Shown here one piece after another: positions 38,494-41,504 of a DNA stretch of 41,504 nt (position 1 is its first letter; every line of letters starts with the position of its first letter). Origin of the DNA: Candidatus Contendibacter sp. (GTDB lineage: Bacteria; Pseudomonadota; Gammaproteobacteria; Competibacterales; Competibacteraceae); contig JAJHPN010000072.1 in the NCBI GenBank assembly GCA_020890855.1, positions 1 through 41,504 of the forward strand, read 5' to 3'. The position numbers and the translations under genes are program-made. The notes beneath the pieces are model-generated. The model had not been told where the DNA came from and searched no databases. It saw nothing but the letters and a program-made list of their open reading frames with translations.

Positions 38494-38625
38494 ATGACAA
38501 TGACTAGCAAGCGCTATCGAAAAGATCATAGCTTCGACTATCGGCTATTATTGCGCGGGTATGGGTTGAGCCGGCGATCTGGCGGGCTGACGCCTCGAAC
38601 CGTAAACAGAGTGGGGAGCGCGTAA
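38494..38625 (+). CDS. 43-residue ORF coupled to the ATP-grasp gene
   Basis: ATG 38494 has AGGA upstream (GAAATCAGGAACG). The 43 codons (MTMTSKRYRKDHSFDYRLLL... GLSRRSGGLTPRTVNRVGSA) are basic and end with TAATG, in which the stop overlaps the start of the next gene by one base. It may be a coupling leader peptide or just a chance frame. No family is recognised. Confidence 0.4.
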   Translation: MTMTSKRYRKDHSFDYRLLLRGYGLSRRSGGLTPRTVNRVGSA

Positions 38626-41255
38626 TGGCGGCGATTGATGCACAAGTCAGTACCGGGCTGGCAGGGCTGGACCGGGTGTTCCGGGGGGTCATGGCCGGCG
38701 ACAACATCGTTTGGCAGGTCGATAGCATTGAGGATTACCGGCCGCTGGTTGAACCCTTTTGTCAGTATGCCCGCGATAAGGGCCGGCGGCTGGTCTATTT
38801 CCACTTTGCCCGCCATGCGGCGCTGGTCCTGGAAGGGCCGGGGGTGGAGATTCATACTCTGGACCCCGGCGAGGGCTTTGAACCGTTCCTTACCGCCATT
38901 CACAAGACCATCGAACTGACCGGGCGCGGCGCTTATTACATCTTTGATGGACTGTCGGATCTGGTGGCGGACTGGTACAGCGATCAGATGCTCGGCAATT
39001 TTTTCATGCTGACCTGTCCGTACCTGTACGACCTGGAAACGGTGGCCTATTTCGCGCTGGTGCGCGGTCATCATTCCTTCCATGCGACCGCGCCGATTCT
39101 CGACACCACGCAGTTATTCAATGATGTCTATCGGCATCACGGCGAGTTGTACGTCCGGCCATTGAAAGTGCAGCAGCGTTATTCGCCCACCATGCACATG
39201 CTCCATGTCTGGCGCGGCGAAGAGTTTCTGCCAGTCACCGACAGCGCCACCATTGCCGAGATTTTGACCCTGACCCCATGGACCGGATTGAAAACCAATG
39301 ATCCACGGCTGGACATCTGGAACCGGACCTTTCTGGAAGTGGAAGAGGTGCTGGAGGCGCAGCGCGATAATGTCCATTGCGCCGAACCGGCGCACAGGCT
39401 GTTGCAGCACACCTTGCGAATGATGGTGTCGCGGGATGACCGGGTGATCCGGCTGGCCGAGCAGTACTTGTCGTTGACCGATATTCTGGCGATCAAGCGG
39501 CGGATGATCGGCGCCGGCCTGATCGGCGGCAAGGCGGTGGGGGTCTTGCTGGCGCGGGCGATCCTGAAAAAAAACCTGCCGCGCTGGAATGATTTGCTGG
39601 AGATCCACGATTCGTTTTTCATCGGTTCGGACGTGTTCTACACCTTTCTGGTCCACAACGGCTGCTGGTGGGTGCGGGACAAGCAGAAGCATCCCGCCAC
39701 CTTTCTGGACGGGGCCGAGACGGCGCGGCGGCGGATTCTGCGCGGCGATTTCCCCGATGACACCTTGCAACAGTTCTCGGACATGCTGGATTACTTCGGC
39801 CAGTCGCCAATGATCGTCCGCTCCAGCAGTTTGCTGGAGGACGACTTCGGCAATGCCTTCGCCGGCAAGTACGACAGCGTGTTCTGCGTCAATCAGGGGC
39901 CACGGGAAAAGCGGCTGGAAGACTTGCTCTCGGCGGTGCGAACCATTTACGCCAGCACCATGAGCGAGCGGGCGCTGATGTACCGGGCGCGGCGCGGGAT
40001 TCTGGATCGCGATGAACAGATGGGTTTGCTGGTGCAGCGGGTGTCGGGGGTGCAACAGAGCAATCTGTTCTATCCGCATGTGGCCGGAGTGGCGTTGTCG
40101 TTTAACCCCTATGCCTGGAGCGAGCAGATTGATCCGACGATGGGGATGGTGCGGCTGGTGATGGGCCTGGGAACGCGGGCGGTGGATCGATCGGATGACG
40201 ATTACACCCGGGTGGTGTCGTTGAGCGACCCGGAACGGCGCCCGGAGAGCAATTTCGATAGCGTGCGTCAGTATGCGCAGAAGCGGATCGATGTTCTTGA
40301 TCTGGAACATAACCAATTGGCTACCTACGCCTTTACCGAGGTCGCCAAACTCAGTCCGGACCTGCCACTGGCGATGGTCGCCACCGTGGATGATGCGCTG
40401 GAGCAGCGGGCGCGGGGGATGAAAGAGGTGTTTCCGTGGGTGCTGACCTTTGAGCAGTTGTTGCGGAACACGCCGTTTGTGGCGGATCTGCGGGAAATGC
40501 TCAAGACCCTGCAACACGCCTACGATTACCCGGTGGATGTCGAATTCACCGCCAACTTCATTGATGACCACCGCTACAAGATCGATCTGGTGCAGTGTCG
40601 TCCGTTCCAGGTCCACGAAGCAGGCACGATTCCCAATCCGCCCACGCCTCTTGATCCGCAGCGGCTGGTGCTGGAGGCGCATGGGGCGGTGATCGGCCAT
40701 AGCCGGATTGGCACGGTGGATCGGCTGGTTTATGTGGTTCCAGGAGTCTATGGGCAGTTGCCGCTGAATGATCGCCATCAAATCGCCCGATTGATCGGCC
40801 AGATCACCCGGTTGCGCAGTCCCGATGCGGCTAACGCGCTGTTGCTGATTGGGCCGGGGCGGTGGGGAACGACTTCACCGGAACTGGGTGTGCCGGTGCG
40901 ATTCGCTGAAATTAGCAGTGCGGCGGCGCTGTGCGAGATCGTGACCCGGCGCGAGGGGTTGGCGCCGGATGTGTCGCTGGGAACCCATTTTTTCAGTGAT
41001 TTGGTCGAGACTGACATTCTGTATCTGGCGATTTTCCCGCAGCGGCAGGACAACCAGCTTAATGAGGCCTTTTTCGATCAGCAGCCCAATCGGCTGGCGG
41101 AGTTGTTGCCGAACGCAGCCGAGTGGGCCGATTGTGTGCGGGTTATTGATCTGCCGAATGCCGCGCATCCGATGGTGCTGCGCTTGAATGCGAATACCTT
41201 GGAACAGCGGGTGTGCTGTTATCTGGAAGCGGTGGGAACAGCTGAGGAGGCTTGA
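38625..41255 (+). CDS. Large ATP-grasp protein related to PEP synthase/PPDK N-domain, with degenerate KaiC-like N-terminus
   Basis: An 876-residue protein. Residues about 1-230 resemble a RecA/KaiC-like domain (STGLAGLDRVFRGVMAGDN) but the P-loop is lost (GDNIVWQVDS instead of GxxGxGKT). Residues about 290-665 match the ATP-binding domain of PEP synthase and pyruvate phosphate dikinase: IGAGLIGGKAVGVLLA, SPMIVRSSSLLEDDFGNAFAGK and GVALSFNPYAW. The His-swivel and PEP-binding barrel of a full enzyme are absent. A C-terminal domain (about 670-876) has LLIGPGRWGT and GTHFFSDLVETDILY. So it may phosphorylate or ligate something else; the substrate is unknown. The gene is preceded by a 43-codon ORF with TAATG coupling. 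Confidence 0.8.
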   Translation: MAAIDAQVSTGLAGLDRVFRGVMAGDNIVWQVDSIEDYRPLVEPFCQYARDKGRRLVYFHFARHAALVLEGPGVEIHTLDPGEGFEPFLTAIHKTIELTGRGAYYIFDGLSDLVADWYSDQMLGNFFMLTCPYLYDLETVAYFALVRGHHSFHATAPILDTTQLFNDVYRHHGELYVRPLKVQQRYSPTMHMLHVWRGEEFLPVTDSATIAEILTLTPWTGLKTNDPRLDIWNRTFLEVEEVLEAQRDNVHCAEPAHRLLQHTLRMMVSRDDRVIRLAEQYLSLTDILAIKRRMIGAGLIGGKAVGVLLARAILKKNLPRWNDLLEIHDSFFIGSDVFYTFLVHNGCWWVRDKQKHPATFLDGAETARRRILRGDFPDDTLQQFSDMLDYFGQSPMIVRSSSLLEDDFGNAFAGKYDSVFCVNQGPREKRLEDLLSAVRTIYASTMSERALMYRARRGILDRDEQMGLLVQRVSGVQQSNLFYPHVAGVALSFNPYAWSEQIDPTMGMVRLVMGLGTRAVDRSDDDYTRVVSLSDPERRPESNFDSVRQYAQKRIDVLDLEHNQLATYAFTEVAKLSPDLPLAMVATVDDALEQRARGMKEVFPWVLTFEQLLRNTPFVADLREMLKTLQHAYDYPVDVEFTANFIDDHRYKIDLVQCRPFQVHEAGTIPNPPTPLDPQRLVLEAHGAVIGHSRIGTVDRLVYVVPGVYGQLPLNDRHQIARLIGQITRLRSPDAANALLLIGPGRWGTTSPELGVPVRFAEISSAAALCEIVTRREGLAPDVSLGTHFFSDLVETDILYLAIFPQRQDNQLNEAFFDQQPNRLAELLPNAAEWADCVRVIDLPNAAHPMVLRLNANTLEQRVCCYLEAVGTAEEA

Positions 41256-41359: not shown

Positions 41360-41504
41360 ATGGGACAACCACTCCGTAAACCGCTTGGATTCACTTATGC
41401 CGATGTTCTCACCTGGCCGGAAGACGAACGCTGGGAATTGATTGACGGCGAGGCTTATGCGATGTCCGCGCCCGGTCGCGTTCATCAGACGGTGGTCGGT
41501 GAGG
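41360..41504 (+). CDS. Uma2-family (DUF820) endonuclease-like protein, N-terminal part
   Basis: Starts at ATG 41360 with GGAG about nine bases upstream. The 48 visible residues (MGQPLRKPLGFTYADVLTWP, then DERWELIDGEAYAMSAPGRVHQ) match the N-terminus of the Uma2/DUF820 family, a PD-(D/E)XK-fold group mostly common in cyanobacteria and other environmental bacteria. ELIDGE is the family signature. The rest is beyond the window. Confidence 0.88.
   Translation, partial: MGQPLRKPLGFTYADVLTWPEDERWELIDGEAYAMSAPGRVHQTVVGE

Follow-up and report, generated by a model that had tools for sequence, protein, structure and literature searches.

The window, which is the whole 41,504-nucleotide stretch of DNA that was analyzed, carries on its forward strand a single unbroken open reading frame (ORF) of 876 codons at positions 38625–41255. 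The source genome, a metagenome-assembled genome (MAG), totals 3.26 Mb over 453 contigs and contains one copy of this gene. Comparison of the 876-residue polypeptide with Pfam gave a sole match, to the ATP-grasp domain PPDK_N (PF01326, E = 4e-45, residues 299–667), and no match to either the PEP-utilizers (PF00391) or the PEP_C (PF02896) domain; NCBIfam returned sub-threshold matches, far under their cut-offs, that covered essentially only the ATP-grasp part. An alignment-based AlphaFold model (pLDDT 85, pTM 0.84) was submitted to Foldseek, which retrieved KaiC for the N-domain and both rifampin phosphotransferase and HpeI for the ATP-grasp domain, the matches being allotted to domains by their lengths and by the Pfam result. 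The layout of the gene is a dead KaiC-like domain, an ATP-grasp domain (PPDK_N), and a C-terminal domain bearing GPGRWG and GTHFF motifs. An earlier note on this DNA had largely drawn the same domain picture, but its proposal of a coupled short upstream ORF fell, and the glutamate dehydrogenase (GDH) context described below was missed.

The upstream ORF in question comprises 43 codons (38494–38625, forward strand) and had been taken as coupled to the main gene through a TAATG stop/start overlap. A tblastn search with the short ORF yielded no match in any relative, even one whose main gene is 93% identical, and relatives do not keep the overlap. Judged by this pattern of conservation, it is probably a chance ORF outside the system, and the proper start of the feature is 38625 rather than 38494. 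Little is shared by the upstream regions of close relatives apart from a Shine-Dalgarno-like block, GGGAG, and a stretch that resembles a promoter. One block, CTATCGGCTATTATTGCGCGG at approximately 38541–38565, is common to the window and one other locus (L003) and takes the form GTATGGGTTATGATTGCGCC in other Competibacteraceae; it is promoter-like, with a −10 element of TATTAT/TATGAT. Divergent from the main gene lies a tyrosine recombinase (PF00589; 37285–38460, reverse strand), which is conserved beside it in several Competibacteraceae, stands between GDH and the ATP-grasp gene at five loci (L004, L005, L006, L010, and L011), and gave no PADLOC match. It is lineage-specific and probably lies functionally outside the system. 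A role of the locus in anti-phage defence was considered and rejected, there being no PADLOC match. Downstream, positions 41360–41504 on the forward strand hold the start of a Uma2-type gene (PF05685, under the curated cut-off for the fragment), which is cut by the window end.

The N-domain (residues 1–225; 38625–39299, forward strand) adopts a KaiC/RecA fold in the predicted model, with a Foldseek match to KaiC at E = 1.7e-9. A motif scan for the Walker A P-loop, GxxxxGK[ST], found it in none of 38 family members, and the degenerate P-loop position is tentatively placed, by comparison with KaiC, at residues 31–38 (38715–38738, forward strand). A Walker-B-like aspartate, Asp108, is invariant among aligned relatives. 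The KaiC-like domain without a P-loop that had been read from the sequence is therefore borne out; KaiC itself shares the modelled fold but keeps its P-loop, whereas the domain here lacks it in all members and occurs as a single copy. The N-domain also differs by subfamily, being a dead KaiC domain, a tandem receiver-like domain, or another type on a common ATP-grasp and C-terminal portion.

The ATP-grasp domain (residues 299–667; 39519–40625, forward strand) was delimited by Pfam and by alignment with PEP synthases, in which Lys303, Arg399, Glu405, Glu640, Gln657, and Arg659 are conserved. The main catalytic residues are invariant across 46 aligned members from three subfamilies, and, together with the PF01326 match, this upholds the claim that the domain is complete. 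PEP synthase (TIGR01418) and pyruvate phosphate dikinase (PPDK) have the same GGK, VRSS..ED, DxE, and QxR elements in their ATP-grasp domains but also possess a PEP-utilizers domain and a PEP barrel, neither of which is present here. The ATP-grasp fold is likewise found in rifampin phosphotransferase and in the HpeHI/CreHI/PpsAB enzymes, and the catalytic residues of the protein match those of the PEP synthases to which rifampin phosphotransferase and these split dikinases are related. Those enzymes also carry a swivelling domain with the motif T/SxxGGxxxH as well as a distinct domain for the substrate (PMC12167813); neither can be recognized in the window protein. The combination of ATP-grasp, substrate, and His domains seen in rifampin phosphotransferase, PigC/RedH, and HpeHI was accordingly not found, the NCBIfam match being to ATP-grasp only.

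The C-terminal domain (approximately residues 680–872; 40662–41240, forward strand) belongs to no Pfam or NCBIfam family. It contains the motifs GPGRWG (residues 743–748; 40851–40868) and GTHFF (residues 786–790; 40980–40994), both on the forward strand and invariant or nearly so; across 46 sequences from three subfamilies they take the forms GPGRWG and G[TS]HFF/L. The domain is common to the three subfamilies despite their unlike N-domains, and His788, within GTHFF, is the sole invariant histidine among the 46 aligned members. Comparison of the domain with the PF00391 swivel domain by hhalign gave a probability of 0.4%, against 99.4% for a positive control in which EI-type and PEP synthase His domains were compared. 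A motif scan of the domain for T/SxxGGxxxH, the motif described for swivel domains (PMC12167813), was negative, and the domain is too short for a PEP/pyruvate barrel and unlike one in sequence. These results support the earlier view that a different C-terminal domain replaces the swivelling-His and PEP domains and, with no swivel domain detected by Pfam or hhalign and no PEP barrel by Pfam, that the protein is not a PEP synthase. It can be neither a PEP synthase nor a PPDK, and it is unable to make phosphoenolpyruvate.

Identification of the C-terminal domain as a diverged swivelling-His domain was rejected on the negative PF00391 profile comparison, for which the control worked, and is entertained as a hypothesis only. 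The predicted order of secondary-structure elements is nevertheless similar in the two, and so is the position of His788, at the start of a helix in the model. From its invariance and predicted position, His788 is a candidate phospho-acceptor, which is put forward as a guess because the domain has neither PF00391 profile similarity nor the T/SxxGGxxxH motif. Reading the domain as a dead nucleotidyltransferase, with GPGRWG resembling the GS motif of such enzymes, was also rejected, since in a paralogue the true NTP_transf_2 is an extra domain after GTHFF.

The window protein belongs to a family, unnamed and defined here by a PPDK_N domain followed by GPGRWG ... G[TS]HFF, of which a contig scan recovered 51 loci; full-length homologues at 46–93% identity occur in about ten phyla. 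The loci included Competibacteraceae, Dechloromonas, Geobacter and other Deltaproteobacteria, Planctomycetota, Verrucomicrobia, Lentisphaerae, Armatimonadota, Sumerlaeota, Hydrogenedentota, and Actinomycetota records, nearly all of them from MAGs. Complete homologues in this set keep the layout at roughly 870 residues, and the nearest relatives, at 92–93% identity, are in Competibacteraceae MAGs. The gene is patchy: it was found in 12 of 39 Competibacteraceae genomes (one fragment included), in 2 of the 398 genomes from the phylum as a whole and, with a second subfamily counted, in 28 of the 148 from the phylum to which L040 belongs. This pattern refutes a decayed PEP synthase/PPDK or a misannotated fragment, a reading with next to no chance of being correct: the ATP-grasp sequence does resemble that of PEP synthase, but the full-length layout and the separate C-terminal domain are conserved in about ten phyla, the ORF is uninterrupted, and another gene in the same genome encodes a canonical PPDK, which is truncated at the end of its contig.

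A search of named plasmid records revealed Bacteroidota homologues that have receiver-like N-domains and are 26–28% identical to the window protein over the ATP-grasp and C-terminal domains. An architecture termed REC-PPDK_N has been noted in Bacteroides and Heimdallarchaeota (PMC5847659), and the sources consulted describe no function for it. One such protein, WP_041525632.1, is 27% identical to the window protein over the ATP-grasp domain and has the same GPGRWG/GTHFF C-terminal domain, the difference being the receiver-like in place of the KaiC-like N-domain. Its gene also adjoins gdhA, as do relatives of the window gene. Two records from human faeces filed as 'Bacteriophage sp.' (MT835667 and MT835811) contain a Bacteroidota homologue; both look bacterial and are marked UNVERIFIED.

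The recurrent neighbour of the gene across phyla is GDH. When fetched flanks of up to 8 kb per side were searched by tblastn, GDH was found near the gene at 32 of the 51 loci. These loci come from many phyla and show at least four arrangements, with GDH either upstream (co-directional or divergent) or downstream (convergent or co-directional). The adjoining GDHs are mostly of the NADP-specific type, and the three that were checked exceed the NCBI equivalog cut-off. Several Competibacteraceae loci have the order gltB, GDH, recombinase, gene, and in a gammaproteobacterial outsider (L095) the homologue directly follows the end of GDH on the same strand. Two Actinomycetota loci have no GDH and instead read gltB-gltD-gene-glnA. 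Where GDH was missing from the locus (two cases with gltB/gltD/glnA only), 11 of the 12 genomes searched carry it elsewhere. Two of three Bacteroidota records showed the link as well: in Parabacteroides distasonis the homologue is divergent from an annotated gdhA and a second GDH lies about 3.5 kb downstream, an arrangement repeated in Phocaeicola massiliensis, whereas a Prevotella record had no GDH within 6 kb of the homologue. In a Parabacteroides record (L090:7749–12476), genes for RapZ, a nucleotidyltransferase, and an endonuclease/exonuclease/phosphatase family protein lie between the homologue and the second GDH.

The first set had been found solely by sequence but was unevenly sampled, and therefore 148 genomes of another phylum were taken, picked blind to neighbouring genes. 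This replication sample contained 29 loci, 21 of them full-length members and 8 of the second subfamily. GDH lay within 8 kb of 14 of the 21 full-length members, and an archaeal-type GDH stood beside 6 of the 8 second-subfamily loci. Collectively, GDH was near 20 of 29 loci, compared with none of 20 loci in a control set built from PF00391 proteins of the same phylum with the same flanks (Fisher p = 5e-7, a value that ignores relatedness). The second-subfamily gene and the archaeal-type GDH are only 4 bp apart on one strand at L148, and the gene and GDH are co-directional and about 50–110 bases apart at three further loci (L149, L151, and L154). All nine genomes checked among replication loci without a nearby GDH carry the enzyme, two of them 12–15 kb away on the same contig. 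Co-occurrence within Competibacteraceae genomes at least 90% complete pointed the same way: 8 of the 10 genomes that carry the gene have GDH, against 0 of the 15 that lack it, counts that are uncorrected for relatedness. The distances among the genes and among the GDHs correlate (r = 0.78), which shared ancestry can explain and which is not counted as evidence. The link to GDH is strong, and no description of such a link for a PPDK-like protein was found in the open-access literature searched.

There are exceptions. The source genome of the window, a fragmented MAG, showed no GDH and no PF00208 match, and a genome search of a second fragmented MAG, that of a relative (G050), gave no NADP-GDH match. 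Both retain the gene, and the G050 locus (L097) reads gltD-gltB-recombinase-gene with GDH gone from the series. Because its own genome shows no GDH, the gene in the window's organism may act on another target, or GDH may fall in an assembly gap.

Given that the gene adjoins GDH in so many phyla, the protein most likely controls, or works with, this enzyme. Proximity to GDH fits regulation and a metabolic step alike and does not distinguish between them. The main rival, which we consider rather unlikely, is accordingly a metabolic enzyme of a glutamate/2-oxoglutarate pathway, in which the ATP-grasp and C-terminal domains phosphorylate or ligate a small molecule under regulation by the N-domain. 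Most characterized PPDK_N relatives (rifampin phosphotransferase, HpeHI, and PigC/RedH) do use small molecules, and linkage to GDH, GOGAT, and GS suits a pathway enzyme too, but the C-terminal domain, at about 190 residues, leaves no clear second substrate-binding domain, and the swapping of sensory-type N-domains between subfamilies is more usual for a regulator.

A regulator without phosphotransfer, whose ATP-grasp domain binds ATP/ADP and reports the energy state to GDH by contact, would agree with the genomic link and with an N-domain that has already lost its P-loop. Invariance of the main catalytic residues in 46 members of three subfamilies is unexpected for a pure binder, and such a nucleotide sensor is less probable still than a pathway enzyme. 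More improbable again is that the protein is one half of a split dikinase and passes phosphate to the swivel histidine on another protein, for example an EI/PtsP-type protein of the phosphotransferase system, as HpeI does for HpeH. Stand-alone HpeI-type ATP-grasp proteins match it structurally, in the predicted model (PMC12167813), and a PF00391 His domain occurs in four proteins encoded by its own genome, of which the two read through (L053 and L055) are EI- and PtsP-like. No stand-alone swivel/His-domain partner was seen in that genome, however, where a check for any gene that could provide the absent PEP domain gave no obvious candidate; no recurrent His-domain neighbour was seen, whereas GDH recurs; and the C-terminal domain carries its own invariant histidine.

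The intact phosphotransfer-type ATP-grasp domain, the lack of PEP chemistry, the exchangeable sensory-type N-domains, and the repeated link to a cognate class of GDH together point to a regulator or partner dedicated to GDH. We put the probability that the protein is a phosphotransferase or regulator of the ATP-grasp kind that is dedicated to GDH and has an exchangeable sensory N-domain at roughly 0.5. All of the observations, including the exchange of N-domains between subfamilies, fit the earlier suggestion of a new ATP-dependent phosphotransferase or ligase with a regulatory N-domain. In the proposed mechanism, ATP would be bound by the PPDK-type ATP-grasp domain, which would hand a phosphoryl group to a histidine as in characterized dikinase relatives; the likely acceptor would be His788, with the GPGRWG/GTHFF domain standing in place of the swivelling domain. 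The phosphate, or a conformational change, would then act on GDH, and perhaps on GOGAT and GS too, switching ammonia assimilation on or off, and the N-domain would serve as an exchangeable sensory or docking module.

The closest working precedent is VadK (Rv1127c) of Mycobacterium tuberculosis, a PPDK without the pyruvate domain that autophosphorylates on His422, whose gene is close to methylcitrate-cycle genes and which interacts with their enzymes (PMC13400623). Both proteins combine a PPDK-type ATP-grasp domain with the absence of a pyruvate/PEP domain. VadK is encoded beside enzymes that it reportedly binds, and relatives of the window gene adjoin GDH, although in the window itself no GDH lies beside the gene. 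VadK differs in that it has a canonical swivelling-His domain, which is not recognizable here, in that it lacks both the KaiC and the GPGRWG/GTHFF domains, and in that its partners are methylcitrate-cycle enzymes rather than GDH.

Of the two main routes by which ammonia enters organic nitrogen in bacteria, one is GDH, whose post-translational control is, to our knowledge, poorly known outside a few model organisms. An ATP-grasp protein that adjoins GDH in many phyla, with varied gene arrangements and sensory domains, is a concrete and testable candidate for such control. Work on Bacteroides fragilis in the 1980s reportedly described a reversible inactivation of GDH in vivo, and a Bacteroidota family member would be an obvious candidate for the agent. 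A fuller proposal, which is possible but doubtful, is that the family constitutes an unrecognized, multi-phylum control of ammonia assimilation in which an ATP-grasp kinase forms phosphohistidine on a new GTHFF carrier and acts as a reversible GDH switch, with N-domains swapped between lineages including gut Bacteroidota. If so, the PPDK ATP-grasp module would have been widely co-opted for regulation.

The paralogue containing NTP_transf_2 is about 1060 residues long and occurs at L020 (10740–13925, reverse strand), L039, and L046. It has the same ATP-grasp and GTHFF domains, with NTP_transf_2 as the extra C-terminal domain, and in Verrucomicrobia/Lentisphaerae it is flanked by the main gene on one side and by an archaeal-type GDH on the other.
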